NCBI RefSeq assembly: GCF_014204325.1
Contig: NZ_JACHKT010000013.1
Span: 62,001 to 126,000 of the forward strand
Direction: 5' to 3'
Length of the DNA stretch: 64,000 nucleotides
From: Arcicella rosea
GTDB lineage: Bacteria; Bacteroidota; Bacteroidia; Cytophagales; Spirosomataceae
Shown piece after piece: positions 24,133 through 36,026 of the stretch (position 1 is the stretch's first letter; each line of letters begins with the position of its first letter). The translations under genes were made by a program, and so were the position numbers. The notes under the pieces are model-generated. The model ran no database searches. It was not told the DNA's origin and saw only the letters and a program-made list of their open reading frames with translations.

Positions 24133-25314
24133 ATGATTCAAAGAGAAATTAGTTCAGAATTACTTTTTAGAGTAAACCATTTTCCTGTTTCGGCAATCTT
24201 AGGCCCAAGACAAGTAGGAAAAACAACTTTGGTAAAAGCTATTCAAAGAGAGCTACCAAAAGAAAGTATCTATTTTGACCTAGAGATACCATCTGATTTG
24301 AATAAATTTTTATCCGACCCCGAATTATTTCTCAAAAACTTACAGCAACAAACTGTTATTTTAGACGAAATTCATCGGCTTCCTAATATTTTTGTCTTAC
24401 TCCGTGGTTTAATCGACCAACAACGTGAAGCTGGGCGATTTATACTTTTGGGTTCGGCTTCGCCAGATTTATTGAAAAATACAGCTGAATCGCTCGCTGG
24501 ACGAATTTCATATTTAGAAATGCATCCATTGCATTATCGTGAAATTGCACCAGAGAATTATCAAAACCACTGGCTTTGGGGTGGATTTCCAGCAGCATAC
24601 TTAGCAAAAAATGAACGTATCAAAAATATTTGGCTAAATGATTTTTTGATGAGTTACCTTGAAAGAGATTTGCCTCAATTAGGGCTTGCAGTTTCGCCAT
24701 TACTCATGCGCCGACTTTTGATGATGCTTGCCAGTATTCAAGGTGGAATTTTAAATTATTCTACTTTGGCAAATTCACTGGGTGTAAGTCAACCAACAGT
24801 AAAAAATGCCATTGACTTTTTGGAACAAGCCTTTTTAGTGCGTCGTTTACAGCCTTATTTTATAAATATTGGTAAACGCCTAGTGAAAAGTCCTAAAATT
24901 TATATTCGTGACAGTGGACTTTTGCATCACTTATTGAATGTAAAGGATTTTAATAGCCTTTTAGGGCATATAGTAGCTGGCGGTTCTTGGGAAGGTTATA
25001 TCATTCAGGAAATCATCAGTATTTTACCACAAGATACTCTCCCTTTTTATTATCGTTCTCAGGATGGTGCTGAATTAGATTTAGTTATTGAACAAGGCTT
25101 AGGGATTAAACTTGCTATAGAAATCAAATTATCCGACTCTCCTACCCTTTCAAAAGGGAACAGTATTTCTTTACAAGATTTAGGTAATCCGCCGCTACTG
25201 GTTGTTACGCCCTCAGCTCAAGATTATGAACTTCGACCGAACGTTTGGGTTTGTTCAATTGCTACTTTGGCACAAAACTTAACGAAGTTTGGCTTAAATA
25301 TTTATCAACTTTAA
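24133..25314 (+). CDS. AAA_14/DUF4143-family ATPase (paralogue 1)
   Basis: 393 residues. N-terminal AAA+ domain: Walker A GPRQVGKTT (24-32), Walker B VILDEIH with Asp78-Glu79, and a sensor-like LGSASPDLL. The C-terminal DUF4143 half has a winged-helix stretch (YSTLANSLGVSQPTVKNAID), VKSPKIYIRDSGLLH, and a nuclease-fold-like signature (DGAELDLVIE ... LAIEIK). Family members are common, usually solitary and of unknown cellular role. It is homologous along its whole length to the protein at 34851-36026 (roughly 45 percent identity by eye). It points toward the rep-par block and is convergent with the small gene at 25330. A perfect palindrome precedes the start. Confidence 0.85.
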   Translation: MIQREISSELLFRVNHFPVSAILGPRQVGKTTLVKAIQRELPKESIYFDLEIPSDLNKFLSDPELFLKNLQQQTVILDEIHRLPNIFVLLRGLIDQQREAGRFILLGSASPDLLKNTAESLAGRISYLEMHPLHYREIAPENYQNHWLWGGFPAAYLAKNERIKNIWLNDFLMSYLERDLPQLGLAVSPLLMRRLLMMLASIQGGILNYSTLANSLGVSQPTVKNAIDFLEQAFLVRRLQPYFINIGKRLVKSPKIYIRDSGLLHHLLNVKDFNSLLGHIVAGGSWEGYIIQEIISILPQDTLPFYYRSQDGAELDLVIEQGLGIKLAIEIKLSDSPTLSKGNSISLQDLGNPPLLVVTPSAQDYELRPNVWVCSIATLAQNLTKFGLNIYQL

Positions 25315-26021: not shown

Positions 26022-26963
26022 TTAAAGAATACCTAAATAGGCTCCATATTCTTCCAAAGTATTCCTTAAATTATCAAAATCTTCTTTACTTCTACTTGCA
26101 TAAACCTTTTCTGTTTTTGCTGTTAAAGTATTCATCCAAATACTTAAATCATGTGTACTTTCTTCTGATTTACTATTTTTGATATTTAGCTTTACTCCTA
26201 AAGCACTTGCTTCTACTATTTTTTCAATCTCACTTATTGCTGTAATTGGCTCAATGTTTTCTGAGATTCGTCCTAAAGTTTGAATGACTTTTTTATCAAT
26301 CTTCTTTTTTCCTGTCAGAATTTCATTTCTTAATGTAGGTTCTATTTTAGATAATCCTTCTGCAAATTGTCCATCTCTTTTAATCGTCGAAGCACCTACA
26401 TTATACTCTTTCGCAAGTTTTTCAACGGTTCTGCCTTTTTCTTGTGGACTAGCATTGGGTTCATTGTGGACCCAATGACCCGATCTATCGTACTTGCCCG
26501 GCCCCGTTTTTTCATTCAAAAATCTTAATCCACGGAAATATGAAATTTGTTCCGAACTAAGGTTTCGTCTTCCTAATTGTAAATCAATCATGTAATCTTT
26601 CACTTCCTCTTTGGAATTGAAAGGCATGAGTTGCACACTAAAATTCAAATTGTGCTGTTTACAAATCTGAAAACGGTTATGTCCGTCAACCAAAATATAT
26701 ACTGGCTCGTTTGGATACTCAGCATTTGCTTCAATCGCACTTCGTTTGGTTTCCCACAAAGTCAAAGCATCACGACAGCCATTTTTCAAAATATTTTGTT
26801 CTAACAAAGAAAACTCTTCCGCACCCAGAGGTGGAATAAACATTCTGAGTTCTTCCAGTACTTCTATACTCTTTTTTACTTGCTCGTCAGATATTAATTT
26901 ATTATTGACAAAAGTGCTTTTTGTGGTTGCTGCAATGGCTTTTCCTAAATCTAGTTTTTTCAT
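26022..26963 (-). CDS. parB: ParB-family partition protein
   Basis: 313 residues. The N-terminal ParB/sulfiredoxin-like domain spans about residues 40-140 with NAEYPNEPVYILVDGHNRFQ, the DGHNR box being typical. It is followed by a helix-turn-helix region (VEKLAKEYNVGASTIKRDGQ, about 175-200) and a C-terminal helical segment likely to dimerise. ParB binds centromere sites and stimulates the ParA ATPase, ensuring plasmid segregation. The gene begins 8 bp after the parA stop. A sequence inside it (26451-26475) repeats 13 bp of the large palindrome at 30794-30846 and is itself an imperfect dyad, a possible secondary ParB site. Confidence 0.85.
   Translation of the reverse strand: MKKLDLGKAIAATTKSTFVNNKLISDEQVKKSIEVLEELRMFIPPLGAEEFSLLEQNILKNGCRDALTLWETKRSAIEANAEYPNEPVYILVDGHNRFQICKQHNLNFSVQLMPFNSKEEVKDYMIDLQLGRRNLSSEQISYFRGLRFLNEKTGPGKYDRSGHWVHNEPNASPQEKGRTVEKLAKEYNVGASTIKRDGQFAEGLSKIEPTLRNEILTGKKKIDKKVIQTLGRISENIEPITAISEIEKIVEASALGVKLNIKNSKSEESTHDLSIWMNTLTAKTEKVYASRSKEDFDNLRNTLEEYGAYLGIL
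26451..26475. promoter_or_regulatory. Possible secondary partition site inside parB
   Basis: AGCATTGGGTTCA at 26451-26463 is identical to 30806-30818 in the origin palindrome, and it is followed by TGGACCCAAT, giving an imperfect dyad. The sequence also encodes protein, so this is only suggestive. Confidence 0.35.
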
Positions 26964-26971
26964 CTTTCCTC

Positions 26972-27925
26972 TTATTTAACCAATTGAAGGTATTCAATGT
27001 ATTCATTACAGAAATCAGCGTACAATTTGGCTGCTTCTGAAGCACCAGAAAACTTTGAAATGGTATTCAACATTACTTGTGCTTTTTGAAAATCGACCAA
27101 ATGCTTAATTTCTGTTTTGAAAATCCTGATGGGTAAATTTGCTCTAATGGCTTCTTTAATATTATCATGCACCGAATTCTTTTTAACCATCGTAAAAACC
27201 AAACCATCGATATCCAACATAGGATTTAGGTTTTTCTTTACATCATGTACTTTATCCAATAAAGTATTTACGCCTTTCATCGCCGCCATTTCAGGCAACA
27301 TTGTTACCAAACAAGCATCTGAAGCATACATTGCCGAAACCGTTAACTTACCCAAAGAAGGCGGACAATCTATCAAAACATAGTCAAATTCGCTCAATAG
27401 AGGAATAATACGGTTTTTAAGACGTAAATCTCCACCAGTCAATAATATTAGTTCGTATTCTGCTTTGGCTAAATCAATATCCGATGGTGACAAAAATAGG
27501 TTTTCTTGAATTTGGACAACAGGAAATTCTGCATCATTTATCAGCGAATCTGCTACTTGTACTTCTGGATTTTCAATACCAAGAATTTGCGATAAATTTC
27601 CCTGTGGGTCAAGGTCTATCATCAATACTCTAAAACCTTTGTTTGCCAAGGCTTCTCCCAAACACGAAACCGTGGTTGTTTTTCCAACTCCTCCTTTATG
27701 ATTTACAACCGAGACAACTCTTGCTTTTTGATATAAATCTTTAGAATAACCATATTTCATCAAAACGCCTTCTAATGCTACCAAATGGTTTTCATTCAGC
27801 TTTCGGTTTCCTGCTACTGCTTGTCTTAAAGTACCAGAAGGTAAAGATGCTTCTTTTTCAATACCCGCTATCGACAAAGCAGGGTTATGTCTAAAGAACT
27901 TTAAAGCATTTTCTTGTGTAAGCAT
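26972..27925 (-). CDS. parA: ParA-family partition ATPase with N-terminal DNA-binding domain
   Basis: 317 residues. Residues 1-65 form a helix-turn-helix-like domain (SIAGIEKEASLPSGTLRQAV), as in type Ia ParA proteins that repress their own operon. The deviant Walker A motif KGGVGKTT is at 77-84, followed by VLMIDLDPQGNLSQILG and DYVLIDCPPSLGKL. It is a cytoplasmic ATPase that moves ParB-centromere complexes over the nucleoid. It is followed after 8 bp by parB and preceded by two inverted repeats (27951-27989, 27999-28031), probable autoregulatory operators. It lies 255 bp downstream of rep on the same strand. Confidence 0.93.
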   Translation of the reverse strand: MLTQENALKFFRHNPALSIAGIEKEASLPSGTLRQAVAGNRKLNENHLVALEGVLMKYGYSKDLYQKARVVSVVNHKGGVGKTTTVSCLGEALANKGFRVLMIDLDPQGNLSQILGIENPEVQVADSLINDAEFPVVQIQENLFLSPSDIDLAKAEYELILLTGGDLRLKNRIIPLLSEFDYVLIDCPPSLGKLTVSAMYASDACLVTMLPEMAAMKGVNTLLDKVHDVKKNLNPMLDIDGLVFTMVKKNSVHDNIKEAIRANLPIRIFKTEIKHLVDFQKAQVMLNTISKFSGASEAAKLYADFCNEYIEYLQLVK

Positions 27926-28180: not shown

Positions 28181-29602
28181 TTATACAAGATTGATTCCCA
28201 TTTTCTTCGCTTCTTTTTGTAAAGCAATTGCTTCAGGACTAGCATGAATTTGCTGTTTGTAAGTACTTTCTACAATTGAAATAATCGCACCGTTGAAAGA
28301 TGGATTAATGTCTAAATATTGAATGATATTTTCTGCAGAAACAATATCTTGAAAATGTTTTTTGAATGATTCAAAAGCAAACTGGGTTTCCAAAGAAGTA
28401 CTCAATTTATTCACTACAAATTCATAGCAATTTGAATCCGTTTTCAGCAACTCAGTAATTCTATTCTGGCAATAAGTATGATACTTCTTTTTTAAATTGA
28501 ACACATTCATGTTCAAACCTTCTTCTCTAGCTTTTTCTAAATGTGCTTTTTTCTTTTTTTCTCTTTCTTCTTTTTGCTTTGATTCTTTTTCTTTCAATAA
28601 AACAGCAAACTTCTCATCTTCCAACAATTGAATGATATAACCAATAACATTTCTGATTAGCTTTCCTCCTTTAACTTCAGCCAACACATAACTAACTGTT
28701 TCTTTGATTTTTTGCAGTGGATAAACTTTCAACCATTTTTGAATCAATTCTTCCGAAGCTCCGTATTCTCCTAGCAATTTTAAAAATTCTGTAACTTCCT
28801 TATTTTCAGGAGTACTTTTCTTACTTTCTTTGATTAATTCATACGTTGCTTCCTCAATATCATCATTCGGTACCGAAATATTGGCATTTCGCTGAATGGT
28901 AAAAACTAATATGACGACAGTATTTCCCTTTTTTCTTTCTTCATAAGTGAAATACAAATCGCTGGTTTCTTGCAATTCTTTTTGAGCAACGTTGATTACT
29001 CTTTTTCGAAAATCAGTGTATTTGGCATAACGGTCACCCAGACCCAAAATATCTTTGAGTTTTTCTACTTCAAATTTAAAAGTGCCCAATCGTTCAGATT
29101 CCTTACAGAATTCATAAAATCTGATAGCATAAATACTCTTCAATTGCAAAAGTGAACGAATATCAATAACTGTGAAATTGGTTTTCAATTGCAACAAATA
29201 AGGCGTTAAAGTAGGAGAGAAGTCTATATTAAACTTTCCTAAGCCATTGTTGTAAGTATAACCCGCAATGATGGTCGTGTTGATTAAACCACCGTCAAAC
29301 TTGTTGTATATTGTTTTCTTTAGAAAATTATCTAATTCGATATTAATCCTAGAATAAATGGCGGTGGTACTAATCCCCGTGATTTTCTTAAACTCTTGTA
29401 CTGAAATTGTGATAGTGTCTAGTCTGTCTTTGGTATGATCTATTTTTGAAATCATGTGCAAAAGTATTTTTACCTGTATCGTACTCAAATCATATCGAGC
29501 ATTGATTACAGGATTACTTTTTACTAACTTGAAGGGTGAATTCGATACGGCTGCCATTGCACTAGCAACTTTATCCGTTTTTTTATTTCCCATAACTATC
29601 AT
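28181..29602 (-). CDS. Rep_3-superfamily plasmid replication initiator
   Basis: 473 residues. The first 240 carry the twin winged-helix Rep_3 initiator domain: NARYDLSTIQVKILLHMISK, IYAIRFYEFCKESERLGTFK and DYAKYTDFRKRVINVAQKEL-like text (ILGLGDRYAKYTDFRKRVIN). The C-terminal half is charged and helical (a coiled-coil-like KEKESKQKEEREKKKKAHLE at about 345-365). Such proteins bind iterons as monomers to open the origin, and as dimers they repress. The tandem iterons begin about 125 bp upstream of the start. ATG 29593 (MGNKKTDK) is an alternative start. At 473 residues it is longer than typical Rep_3 proteins (250-350), the excess being C-terminal. Confidence 0.9.
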   Translation of the reverse strand: MIVMGNKKTDKVASAMAAVSNSPFKLVKSNPVINARYDLSTIQVKILLHMISKIDHTKDRLDTITISVQEFKKITGISTTAIYSRINIELDNFLKKTIYNKFDGGLINTTIIAGYTYNNGLGKFNIDFSPTLTPYLLQLKTNFTVIDIRSLLQLKSIYAIRFYEFCKESERLGTFKFEVEKLKDILGLGDRYAKYTDFRKRVINVAQKELQETSDLYFTYEERKKGNTVVILVFTIQRNANISVPNDDIEEATYELIKESKKSTPENKEVTEFLKLLGEYGASEELIQKWLKVYPLQKIKETVSYVLAEVKGGKLIRNVIGYIIQLLEDEKFAVLLKEKESKQKEEREKKKKAHLEKAREEGLNMNVFNLKKKYHTYCQNRITELLKTDSNCYEFVVNKLSTSLETQFAFESFKKHFQDIVSAENIIQYLDINPSFNGAIISIVESTYKQQIHASPEAIALQKEAKKMGINLV

Positions 29603-29725: not shown

Positions 29726-29857
29726 ATTCATATTGTCTCTAGTCTGCATTCAATTTGTCTCGCTTATACATTCATATTGTCTCTAGTCTGCATTCAATTT
29801 GTCTCGCTTGTGCATTCATATTGTCTCTAGTCCGCATTCAATTTGTCTCTATATTGC
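29726..29857. repeat. Origin iterons, tandem block: six 22-bp direct repeats
   Basis: ATTCA-NNNN-GTCTC begins at 29726, 29748, 29770, 29792, 29814 and 29836, a strict 22-bp period. Centres alternate TATT and ATTT, so the true unit is 44 bp repeated three times; the TATT copies are followed by TAGTCTGC (or TAGTCCGC) and the first two ATTT copies by GCTT. They lie about 125 bp from the rep start, where the initiator would bind to start replication and control its own gene. Confidence 0.93.
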
Positions 29858-30126
29858 CTTTTAATATACTCATAATCAATAACTTATGCCTCCTAAAATA
29901 CTTAAAAGAATATAAATAATAAAATCAACAAAGAATAAAACATTGATGTTTATCTATTTTTTTATTCTTTTTTTAAAGATTTTCAATAATATTTTCTGTT
30001 ATACTGTTTTTCAAGGGTTTATTGCTTCATTTTAAATTTAATTCACTTGAAAGCAACAATATATTTAAATAGTTTCTTAGAATTCTGCATGGATTTGTAG
30101 ATTATTCTTAAAATTGTCAATGAGAC
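29858..30126. other. AT-rich region between the iteron blocks (candidate duplex-unwinding element)
   Basis: No gene. The stretch is extremely AT-rich, with T runs near 29950-30000, and is flanked by iteron blocks on both sides, as expected for the melting region of an iteron origin. No perfect TTATCCACA DnaA box was seen here by eye. Confidence 0.5.
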
Positions 30127-30753
30127 ATTCAAAAAGTCTCACTTCTCACTCTTTTCAACTATTCCGTTTGCGAATTATTAATTCAAATTGTCTCTTTTCT
30201 ATCTTTTGAATGTTCTTTGATGACATTCAAAAAGTCTCTCTTCTAATATGTGTTAAAGATTCATTGATGTTTTTAAACTAATTCAAATTGTCTCATTTCA
30301 ACAATTTCTCAATCTCTGAATTTAGTTATGAATTATGATTAATTCGTTCAGTTGCTTGATAGATAAGCACTTATCTGTGCATTCAATTTGTCTCACTTGA
30401 TAGCGTATGACTATACTTTTTTCATCTGAAAGAATACATTCAAAAAGTCTCGTTTTAAAAATGATTGAAACTTTAGCCTTTTGAACAATAATTAATTCAA
30501 ATTGTCTCACTTTACTCTGATAAGAGCATTCAATTTGTCTCTTTTATAAGTACTCTATTAAACTTTATGACTCTAATAAATACATTCAAAAAGTCTCTAT
30601 TAGAGATTTAGCTGTCTTTAAAGTATGCTTAAATAATTCATTCAAATTGTCTCTGTTGGACATTCAATTTGTCTTAGTTTAAATAAACCATAGTAGCAAA
30701 TAATTAGGATAAATTGATGTGAGAATGATATGTATAAGCATTCAAATTGTCTC
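30127..30753. repeat. Origin iterons, dispersed block: twelve phased copies of three variants
   Basis: ATTCA-NNNN-GTCTC starts at 30127 (AAAA), 30181 (AATT), 30225 (AAAA), 30281 (AATT), 30381 (ATTT), 30438 (AAAA), 30495 (AATT), 30528 (ATTT), 30584 (AAAA), 30640 (AATT), 30662 (ATTT, last base T) and 30740 (AATT). All are in the same orientation as the tandem block. Spacings are 54, 44, 56, 100, 57, 57, 33, 56, 56, 22 and 78 bp, close to multiples of 11. A palindrome AGATAAG-CA-CTTATCT lies at 30361-30376. No gene overlaps it convincingly. Confidence 0.92.
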
Positions 30754-30793: not shown

Positions 30794-30846
30794 TTATTTA
30801 CAGATAGCATTGGGTTCACAATGAACCCAATGCTATCTGTAAATAA
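30794..30846. promoter_or_regulatory. Perfect 25-bp inverted repeat, candidate centromere (parS-like)
   Basis: Bases 30794-30818 are the exact reverse complement of 30822-30846 with a 3-bp centre; the core is AGCATTGGGTTCA. It closes the iteron region on the side away from rep. The same 13-bp core occurs in an imperfect dyad inside parB. A terminator is less likely because there is no gene ending here and no T tract directly after the stem. Confidence 0.55.
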
Positions 30847-31223: not shown

Positions 31224-31802
31224 TTAGTTTCTCCCAAAAGCTTCGTTCAATTCCGAAGTTGTGTATTGCCAAATACTTTCAGAACCTTTTTGAATACCTT
31301 TTACTTTTTCAAAAACGGTTTCGTAGCTTACGTTAAATTCTGTCCAAGTACCGCCTTGGTTAGAACGATTTTGTAATATGGGTTGAAGTCTATCCATTGT
31401 TTTGGCAAATTTTGCTTCATTACTTTTTCCCTCTTCAAATTCTAACCAAATATCAATAAATTCCTGTGTTTGGTTTGGCGGTAAAATACCAAAGATGCGT
31501 TGTGCTGCAATAAATTCCTCATCTGTATTCACATGGTTTTTTGTAGTATCGTACAGAAAAGTATCGCCAGCATCAATTTCTACAATATCATGAATCAATA
31601 CCATTTTTAAAACTTTCAATACATCAATAGGTTCGTTGGAATGTTCGGCTAAAACCAACACCATCATTGCCAAATGCCAACTATGTTCGGCATCGTTTTC
31701 GTGCCTGTCGCTATTGAATAATTTCGTTTTACGTTGAATATACTTTAGTTTATCAATTTCCTTGATAAATTTAAATTGCTTTAAGAGTTCGTTAACTTTC
31801 AT
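31224..31802 (-). CDS. HD-domain phosphohydrolase (YfbR/HD_3-like)
   Basis: 192 residues. The metal-binding HD pattern is visible as HENDAEHSWHLAMM (about residues 33-46), then LIHDIVEIDAGDTF (about 69-82), with a further Asp downstream. Family members are mostly metal-dependent nucleotide monophosphatases of the YfbR type acting in the cytoplasm. The gene is divergent from a Crp/Fnr regulator, with about 95 bp between starts, which may regulate it. Substrate cannot be told from the sequence. Confidence 0.8.
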   Translation of the reverse strand: MKVNELLKQFKFIKEIDKLKYIQRKTKLFNSDRHENDAEHSWHLAMMVLVLAEHSNEPIDVLKVLKMVLIHDIVEIDAGDTFLYDTTKNHVNTDEEFIAAQRIFGILPPNQTQEFIDIWLEFEEGKSNEAKFAKTMDRLQPILQNRSNQGGTWTEFNVSYETVFEKVKGIQKGSESIWQYTTSELNEAFGRN

Positions 31803-34850: not shown

Positions 34851-36026
34851 TTAACCTTGTAATTCTTTCATTAAATCTACCAAAGAAATAGTTTTTACTC
34901 CTTCAGCAGAAGGATAGCTTTCTTTTCCGGGATAAACTACGTATCGTTTTGTAGCTTTTATGTCTTCACAGCCCAAATAAAAACCTTTAGAAACTGTAGG
35001 TGATAAAGAACGTTTTATCTCAATGGCATATCTTTCTTGATTGTTAATTTCAATGACTAAATCTATTTCAGCTCCTGCTGAAGTTCTGTAAAACCAAAAT
35101 GTTAGCCCTTGAGGTAAACAAGCAATGATATTTTCAATAACGAAACCTTCCCAACTTGCTCCAACAATTGGATGCCCCAACAAATCGTCTTGAGTAGTAA
35201 GGTTTAGCAAAGCGTGAGTCAATCCACTATCACGAATATAGACTTTGGGCGTTTTGACTAATCTTTTCCCAACATTTCCAGACCACGGCAGAATAGTTCT
35301 GACAAGAAATAAATCTTCTAATAATTCAATATATCGCTTTACAGTTGGAATGGTTATTCCCAGACTTGCCCCTAATTGTGCCGTATTTAGTTGTCCTCCT
35401 TGATGATGTGCCAACATCGTCCATAACCTCCGTAATGTTACCGCAGGAATCCTTGTTCCCAATTGTGGAATATCTCTTTCAAGATAAGTGCTGATAAAAT
35501 TTTGTCGCCATCTAAAACTGGCAGCGTCTGTTTGTGCAAGAAAACTATCTGGAAAGCCACCTCTAAGCCAAAGTATATCAATATTGGTTTCGCTTAGAGA
35601 ATAGACTTCTAAAGCTGTCAAACCTGTCAATTCTTTGTACGCAATCCTACCAGCCAAAGATTCCGAAGACTGCTTCAAAAGGTCAAGTGATGCAGAACCT
35701 AAAATCAGGAATTGAGCAGTTCTGAAACCTTGTCTTCTTCGGCGGTCAATCACACCCCTCAATACTGCAAATAGTTCAGGTACACGCTGAATTTCATCCA
35801 AAATAATAAGTTTCCCTTTGTGTAATTCAAAATAGGCTTCTGGGTCATTTAACTTTGCTTGGTCAATAGGGCTTTCCAAATCAAGATAAATCGGTTCAGG
35901 ACTTAGTGATAATGCTATCTCTTCCGCAAGTGTTGTCTTTCCAACCTGTCTGGGACCCAAAATACTTACTGCTGGAAATTCTTCGAGCAATTCAATGATT
36001 TCAACTTGGCTATTTCTTGCAATCAT
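34851..36026 (-). CDS. AAA_14/DUF4143-family ATPase (paralogue 2)
   Basis: 391 residues. Walker A GPRQVGKTT is at 24-32, exactly where it lies in paralogue 1. Walker B reads LIILDEIQRVPE, followed by ILGSASLDLLKQSSESLAGR. The C-terminal DUF4143 part contains NTAQLGASLGITIPTVKRYI (winged helix), VKTPKVYIRDSGLTHALLNL and AGAEIDLVIE ... YAIEIK. Cytoplasmic; function unknown for the family. It points inward toward the replication region, mirror-wise to the gene at 24133. An imperfect palindrome (TCCTTGTAA / TTGCAAGGA) overlaps its start codon at 36026, suggesting that it or a partner binds there. Confidence 0.85.
   Translation of the reverse strand: MIARNSQVEIIELLEEFPAVSILGPRQVGKTTLAEEIALSLSPEPIYLDLESPIDQAKLNDPEAYFELHKGKLIILDEIQRVPELFAVLRGVIDRRRRQGFRTAQFLILGSASLDLLKQSSESLAGRIAYKELTGLTALEVYSLSETNIDILWLRGGFPDSFLAQTDAASFRWRQNFISTYLERDIPQLGTRIPAVTLRRLWTMLAHHQGGQLNTAQLGASLGITIPTVKRYIELLEDLFLVRTILPWSGNVGKRLVKTPKVYIRDSGLTHALLNLTTQDDLLGHPIVGASWEGFVIENIIACLPQGLTFWFYRTSAGAEIDLVIEINNQERYAIEIKRSLSPTVSKGFYLGCEDIKATKRYVVYPGKESYPSAEGVKTISLVDLMKELQG

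Follow-up and report, generated by a model that had tools for sequence, protein, structure and literature searches.

The window analysed here, a stretch of 64 kb within a 135.8-kb contig of Arcicella rosea, contains the gene of a Rep_3-type initiator, rep, which adjoins a tandem block of iterons; parA and then a parB-like gene lie beyond rep (Table 1). The Rep protein carries both winged-helix domains of Rep_3 initiators, as judged by profile matches (PF01051, 3e-28; PF21205, 2e-17; Rep3_N at residues 26-167 and Rep3_C at 178-236) and by its predicted fold. RepE and pi are the closest solved folds in a Foldseek search (RepE 2z9o, 2e-10), and domains 2-3 of RctB give a weak match (8e-5). The Rep_3 gene that a first-pass annotation had placed next to the array is thus supported by domains and folds. 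In the AF2 model of Rep (mean pLDDT 77.5, pTM 0.42), a helix spans residues 195-213 of WH2; D197 sits in the WH2 recognition helix and is the equivalent of D203 in RepE. The C-terminal half of the protein lacks a Pfam match, and parts of it are conserved among related proteins; residues 240-473 (window 28181-28880) are predicted by AF2 to be helical, including a 57-residue helix at 332-388. The parB-like protein (26022-26963) has no match in Pfam or NCBIfam and is perhaps a divergent centromere-binding protein. Two genes for AAA_14/DUF4143 ATPases, at 24133-25314 and 34851-36026, flank the origin module.

Table 1. Features of the rep locus and its iteron array, in window coordinates.
Feature	Position	Strand	Basis
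parB-like gene	26022..26963	-	position and inspection by eye
parA, partition ATPase, domain 69-239	26972..27925	-	Pfam AAA_31 5e-48
rep, Rep_3-type initiator, 473 aa	28181..29602	-	Pfam, AF2 model, Foldseek
T block, six iterons at 22 bp, centres TATT/ATTT	29726..29849	+	motif matches, 44-bp repeat
Iteron T1, TATT	29726..29739	+	exact motif match
Iteron T2, ATTT	29748..29761	+	exact motif match
Iteron T3, TATT	29770..29783	+	exact motif match
Iteron T4, ATTT	29792..29805	+	exact motif match
Iteron T5, TATT	29814..29827	+	exact motif match
Iteron T6, ATTT	29836..29849	+	exact motif match
A+T-rich gap, candidate unwinding element	29850..30126		base composition
D block, twelve dispersed iterons, every centre an A-tract	30127..30753	+	motif matches
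Iteron D1, AAAA	30127..30140	+	exact motif match
Iteron D2, AATT	30181..30194	+	exact motif match
Iteron D3, AAAA	30225..30238	+	exact motif match
Iteron D4, AATT	30281..30294	+	exact motif match
Iteron D5, ATTT	30381..30394	+	exact motif match
Iteron D6, AAAA	30438..30451	+	exact motif match
Iteron D7, AATT	30495..30508	+	exact motif match
Iteron D8, ATTT	30528..30541	+	exact motif match
Iteron D9, AAAA	30584..30597	+	exact motif match
Iteron D10, AATT	30640..30653	+	exact motif match
Iteron D11, ATTT	30662..30675	+	one mismatch, last base
Iteron D12, AATT	30740..30753	+	exact motif match

The array is built from a bipartite site. In the window, ATTCANNNNGTCTC has 17 exact matches, all on the plus strand and all within 29726-30753, as against 0.12 expected in the shuffled window (maximum 1 in 100 shuffles). 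The 18th copy, ATTCAATTTGTCTT, has a single mismatch at its last base, so that the eighteen same-strand copies with fixed ATTCA and GTCTC ends described in the first-pass annotation stand as 17 exact sites and one with a mismatch. The whole genome (5.31 Mb, 77 contigs) contains 22 exact matches, i.e., the 17 in the array and five scattered ones. A reversed control pattern matches four times in the same genome; the five outside the array are background only, and the genome-wide search proposed with that annotation found no similar density elsewhere. GAGACWWWWTGAATG was matched in 23 of 150 family genomes, 14 times in A. rosea and once in each of the other 22, and a second array of such sites was found neither in the own genome nor in the 149 others.

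Read in the sense of rep, the iteron is GAGAC-N4-TGAAT, a 5-4-5 register. The T sites are direct repeats at 22-bp spacing beside rep, as expected of iterons, which are about 17-22 bp long in Rep_3 replicons (PMC4980987). The centres are distributed as had been claimed: TATT occurs three times, in the tandem (T) block only; ATTT six times, three tandem and three dispersed (the mismatched copy counted); and AATT (five) and AAAA (four) in the dispersed (D) block only. Since the T block consists of three copies of a 44-bp unit with two iterons each, TATT and ATTT alternate strictly in it. The D sites start 22-100 bp apart, with no clear helical phase in their spacings by eye, and their centres follow the order AAAA, AATT, AAAA, AATT, ATTT, AAAA, AATT, ATTT, AAAA, AATT, ATTT, AATT. 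Comparison of the 18 sites indicates that the site extends past 14 bp: the dinucleotide AA at -4,-3 (rep sense) is present in 12/12 dispersed versus 2/6 tandem sites, and a G follows TGAAT in 15 of the 18.

The gap between the T block and D1 measures 277 bp and is 79% A+T (86% at 29900-29999); by composition it is a candidate unwinding region, which would open during initiation. The inferred minimal origin would comprise the T block and this gap, outside of which lie the 12 D sites, one of them mismatched, as additional iterons with the same arms. Neither the gap nor the 1.3 kb upstream of rep contains a DnaA box that matches TTATCCACA with at most one mismatch, and a conserved DnaA box in the gap is no rule across related replicons. 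Such boxes are common in the origins of iteron plasmids, in varying number, and are not counted here as a defining feature. Just past the last iteron, at 30794-30846, lies an inverted repeat whose 25-bp arms match perfectly around a loop of 3 nt, and of which this is the sole genome copy within three mismatches; it is perhaps a terminator shielding the array from the gene at 31224-31802.

Arrangement of the sites in related replicons

The genome holds five Rep_3 genes, each with its own same-strand bipartite array; the arm pairs are GAGAC..TGAAT, ACGAC..ATGGG, ATAAC..TTAGG, ATAAC..AGAGT(GT) and GCAAC..TGTAG. Four of the five arrays, and most of the related ones counted, consist of a T block, an A+T-rich gap of about 218 bp and D sites. 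In a set of 58 replicons, the rep-sense strand carries 547 sites and the opposite one 25. The T block has five or six sites in 43 of these, mostly 21-22 bp apart, and a D site is present upstream of T in 52. The gap between T and the nearest D site is 179-298 bp in 44 of the 52 (median 218 bp); the eight exceptional replicons have their nearest upstream site 32-33 or 375 bp away. Sites upstream of T are absent from contig C14 of the own genome and from loci L076, L139 and L141, and a run of three sites is lacking in L065 and L112. The C14 array is reversed, with its dispersed sites between T and rep, and shows no T-D difference in centres. The D tier can be regularly spaced itself, as in L089 (G020:C1), where twelve dispersed iterons 43-46 bp apart are followed by a 242-bp gap and five tandem sites. 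Contig C6 of the own genome carries two different Rep_3 genes with different arms, at 138462 and 184359, 46 kb apart, and may be a two-origin replicon or a fusion.

A motif search of the DNA upstream of rep yielded these arrays. Arms were selected by eye from motif lists; those kept had the form xxxAC or xxxAG, and arrays built otherwise were dropped, which partly accounts for the constant A in the fourth position of arm 1. A set of 40 loci comprised long Reps from the upper part of the list, among the matches listed; L116 and L120 (other repeat form) and L118, L121 and L144 (too few copies) were dropped from it. From a set of 20 loci, L084, L085, L088, L090 and L092 were dropped (short upstream DNA or no clear array of this form), and from a set of 30, L051, L058, L060, L062, L064, L066 and L067 (register unclear or no clear array); 15 others of the latter set duplicated places already covered by longer stretches, or belonged to the own genome. 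In addition, 17 outside plasmids from PLSDB were inspected, of which eleven gave clear arms; the arm of Paenibacillus is a weak call. No clear arm was obtained for pBM19 (upstream cut off), Parageobacillus, Bernardetia, Methylomagnum, Geobacillus and Thiothrix. Tandem as well as dispersed sites are present in the plasmids of Runella rosea, R. slithyformis (a near copy of surveyed replicons) and Aureispira. Those of Niallia, Aureibacter and Alkalihalophilus are mainly tandem, and the two-tier plan is therefore not general in Rep_3 replicons. As comparative findings, the succession of T, gap and D with arms specific to each replicon, and the T-D differences and the link of residue 197 to arm 1 described below, look new.

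Centres and flanks of tandem and dispersed sites

The T and D sites were compared in 65 replicons, i.e., the 58 described above and seven previously omitted, with AAAA, AAAT, AATT, ATTT and TTTT counted as A-tract centres. Such centres are present in 174/334 T sites and 191/280 D sites. Per replicon, the A-tract share is higher in D in 20, lower in 4 and equal in 38 of 62 (sign test, p 0.0015); by arm type, it is higher in 11, lower in 2 and equal in 9. The dinucleotide AA at -4,-3, a feature that was singled out by inspecting the window itself, occurs in 150/334 T and 189/280 D sites, with D exceeding T in 41 replicons, falling below it in 12 and equalling it in 9 (p 8e-5), and with 16 arm types up, 3 down and 3 equal. 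Both trends persist without the window array. Exact arms are found in 283/334 T and 247/280 D sites, which is not a significant difference (22 up, 13 down, 27 equal, p 0.18), and arm mismatches were for this reason rejected as a gauge of weak sites. Centre, flank and arms taken together, all three criteria apply to 56/300 T and 111/247 D sites in the 58 replicons. An early count of A-tract centres in 23 replicons had given 86/98 for D and 76/129 for T, and a second one, in 58 replicons, 16 up, 4 down and 33 equal; both split T from D by nearest neighbour, by which D10 and D11 of the window fell into T. A recount requiring runs of three or more sites gave 19 up, 2 down and 35 equal.

On average, D sites are nearer the consensus than T sites and are therefore read here as probably the stronger binding sites for Rep. 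Of the explanations that the first-pass annotation had offered for the variable centres, graded sites for one initiator thus gain some support from this comparative trend in centre and flank. A review noted in 2016 that evidence for both strong and weak Rep sites in the origins of plasmids was lacking at the time (PMC4980987). The present origins constitute many natural test sets for this question, each with one Rep, 5 to 18 counted sites and two tiers of differing centre and flank.

The centre variants could also be without function, reflecting the duplication history of an ordinary iteron origin, so that the T-D difference would be historical only. The three 44-bp units of the T block are in line with this, as is the cyclic order of the D centres (AAAA-AATT-ATTT, P 0.011), which resembles the remnants of a larger repeat unit; moreover, T and D have the same A-tract share in the 38 replicons mentioned. 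However, no homology is detectable between the D spacers of the window in the seven pairs compared (z -0.3 to 1.9), and if the centre were free spacer, many different D centres would be expected. Yet the 12 centres take three values, all A-tracts, compared to 7.5% A-tract tetramers in the spacers. The excess of A-tracts in D among arm types likewise argues against a purely historical difference. Alternation of T centres bears on both sides. In 33 blocks with at least two centres, neighbours are alike in 41 cases versus 54.9 expected (P 0.0002) and sites at lag 2 in 55 versus 43.1 (P 0.0016). With one replicon per arm type it is not significant (median P 0.18 and 0.12), which speaks for a merely historical difference, but it becomes so (median P about 0.01) once six blocks of four plasmids from outside the family are added. 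Because these blocks were picked for variability, alternation across replicons is suggestive only. Altogether, a history without function is considered rather unlikely. Tandem iterons that alternate two centres are also seen in another phylum, in L172 (Thermoanaerobacterium pMU3262) and L164 (a Mesobacillus foraminis plasmid); the former has the arm TGAAT in common with the window iteron.

Secondly, the grading could be the reverse, with strong and cooperative T sites and weaker D sites that act by number. This is the situation suggested by F, where the incC iterons deviate more than those of ori2, and Reps are described as binding neighbouring iterons cooperatively, dependent on their placing (PMC4980987). 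In the present origins, the features taken to mark strong sites, AA at -4,-3 and A-tract centres, are nevertheless commoner in D, and arms in D are no less exact than in T. A reversed order of strength is considered improbable.

Arm 1 and residue 197 of Rep

WH2 of RepE contacts the GTGAC half of the F iteron, i.e., GTG and the complementary GtCA (PMC4980987), and WH2 should therefore read GAGAC in the window. In 77 proteins, which include the seven replicons added last, the residue at position 197 follows base 3 of arm 1: G goes with D in 21/21 and C with H in 14/14, A with N in 23/32 (others L 4, S 3, A 2) and T with D in 7/10 (others N 3). Among the exceptions to A-N, ATAAC goes with L in four cases and with S in one, ATAAG with S in two and CTAAC with A in two. 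The pairs would be chemically sensible, with Asp facing the C opposite G, Asn facing A, and His facing the G opposite C. The first 59 proteins had given GAC-D 16/16, CAC-H 10/10, AAC-N 17/22 and TAC-D 7/8. Among the eleven outside plasmids with clear arms, all nine with GAC, AAC or CAC (from Bacillota and Bacteroidota) obeyed the rule, in a test that was not blind because arm and residue were shown together.

Among residues 25-239 of 33 proteins, one per arm type or outside plasmid, position 197 is the top column for base 3 (z 13.3, next 7.7). For bases 1-2 of arm 1, positions 194 and 196 are among the high-ranking columns, although T144, which lies outside WH2, comes ahead of them as the top column for base 2. 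No strong residue column was found for arm 2 (largest z 4.6). In a tree built without the recognition helix, the base changes 11 times and the residue 10 times, but the well-supported branches hold only 2-3 independent base-residue pairs, a number too small for testing. No two co-resident replicons in the count have both arms in common (0/49 pairs versus 3.2 expected, P 0.03, arms redealt); sharing of arm 1 alone (8/49 versus 10.5 expected, P 0.26) is not below chance. Searches found no paper on iteron specificity of the Rep_3 WH2 recognition helix, nor, among the papers listed for four genera by name, one that mentions iterons; they covered literature outside subscription journals and are no proof of novelty. 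A link between arm and residue would allow the prediction of iterons, and perhaps of compatibility groups, from Rep sequences in poorly studied plasmids of Bacteroidota and Bacillota.

These data also bear on the second explanation of the first-pass annotation, that two proteins share the sites. A second protein might read some of the centre classes, or the D block might be a partition centromere for a ParB-like protein, in keeping with the parA and parB-like genes adjoining rep and with the ParB2 sites that V. cholerae ori2 has close to its regulatory region (PMC6090056); but a single arm pair finds both tiers in 52/58 replicons and, in the comparison of arms with Rep, arm 1 follows a Rep residue, which makes either variant very improbable. 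One initiator suffices for both tiers.

A model of the origin and its counterparts in known systems

In the window, negative GC skew prevails to the left of the array and skew of mixed sign to its right, consistent with an origin at the array. Over the 135.8-kb contig (C13, 4-kb bins), cumulative skew is lowest in the bin ending at the array (88-92 kb), with a second low 8 kb further along. The skew likewise turns at rep in contig C16 of the same genome. Given the flip at the array, a chromosomal origin was considered; it was set aside because dnaA has its best match on a different contig, because the genome has five Rep_3 genes and because the closest named relatives in the plasmid collection are on records labelled complete plasmids. 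Since no exact end overlap was found in the 135.8-kb contig, its plasmid status is something we infer. The iteron origin beside a Rep_3 gene that was originally suggested is upheld by the domains and folds of Rep, the sign change in GC skew and the relatives on Emticicia records labelled complete plasmids, and the array very probably marks where a large plasmid starts to replicate.

On the reading that is considered probable, a large plasmid-like replicon (136 kb or more) starts replication here with one Rep_3 initiator, T serving opening and D control. Judging from the site itself, a Rep monomer would read GAGAC-W4-TGAAT in rep sense. By analogy with RepE, WH2 would read GAGAC, with D197 at the third base, and WH1 the TGAAT half; the 4-bp centre would then separate the contacted halves, and an A-tract in it may help by its shape. 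Rep bound to the six tandem sites would open the adjoining A+T-rich gap. The twelve D sites would bind Rep away from the T block and pair with T, and such titration and handcuffing, as in the systems compared below, may limit copy number and set incompatibility. Competition for Rep and pairing of T with D follow proposals made for ori2-incC of F and for RepFIB with its two sets of iterons (PMC11983097, PMC13028717), as well as for the control region of Vibrio ori2 (PMC6090056). A more specific scheme for the Rep_3 plasmids of this Bacteroidota family is put forward tentatively, as a possibility: a two-strength iteron code, in which weak, often alternating T sites start replication and strong A-tract D sites past the melting zone set copy number, would go together with a residue-base code of WH2 (D/N/H to G/A/C) that keeps many co-resident replicons compatible.

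The F iteron, GTGAC-AAAT-TGCCC, has the same 5-4-5 register, and with two 5-bp halves four bases apart, the window iteron is a normal Rep_3 iteron. In F, ori2 has four GTGAC-AAAT sites with the centre AAAT throughout and arm 2 TGCCC (one CACCC), and incC has four sites within two mismatches with the centres AAAC, AAAT, GAAC and AGAT. The variable centre does not, therefore, set the window apart from classical iterons, as had been supposed: the array belongs to a known kind, and fixed ends with a variable centre are already known from F. The FIA replicon of F (ori2/oriS, repE, incC) resembles the window in its Rep_3 initiator, RepE, in the tandem iterons before rep, and in having a second iteron set for control and partition genes nearby (PMC13028717). 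However, the iterons for control are found downstream of rep in F, on the opposite strand, and are more degenerate than the other set, whereas the candidate control sites of the window lie upstream, past the A+T-rich gap, on the same strand, and are more consensus-like. A further difference is that DnaA binds in oriS of F (PMC13028717).

RepFIB of F-like plasmids also has two iteron sets, for origin and control, with handcuffing proposed, and its control block alone displaces the replicon; unlike in the window, the control iterons (E-K) lie downstream of rep (PMC11983097). In V. cholerae, ori2-min and ori2-inc combine activating tandem iterons and an A+T-rich region with neighbouring regulatory initiator sites, but RctB control there involves 39-mers of another sequence and Dam methylation (PMC6090056), whereas one arm pair serves both blocks of the window. 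Counterparts in plan are also pEMTOL02 and pEMTOL03 of Emticicia oligotrophica, whose records are labelled complete plasmids with a linear topology field. Their Reps are 35% (pEMTOL02) and 37% (pEMTOL03) identical to the window Rep over about two thirds of the protein, and both share the succession of T, gap and D, with the arms ACTAC..ATGGT and four D sites in pEMTOL02 and ACGAC..ATGGG and three D sites in pEMTOL03, compared to twelve in the window. The layout of the D tier, upstream, on the same strand, past the likely unwinding region and consensus-like, differs from that in F, RepFIB and Vibrio ori2.
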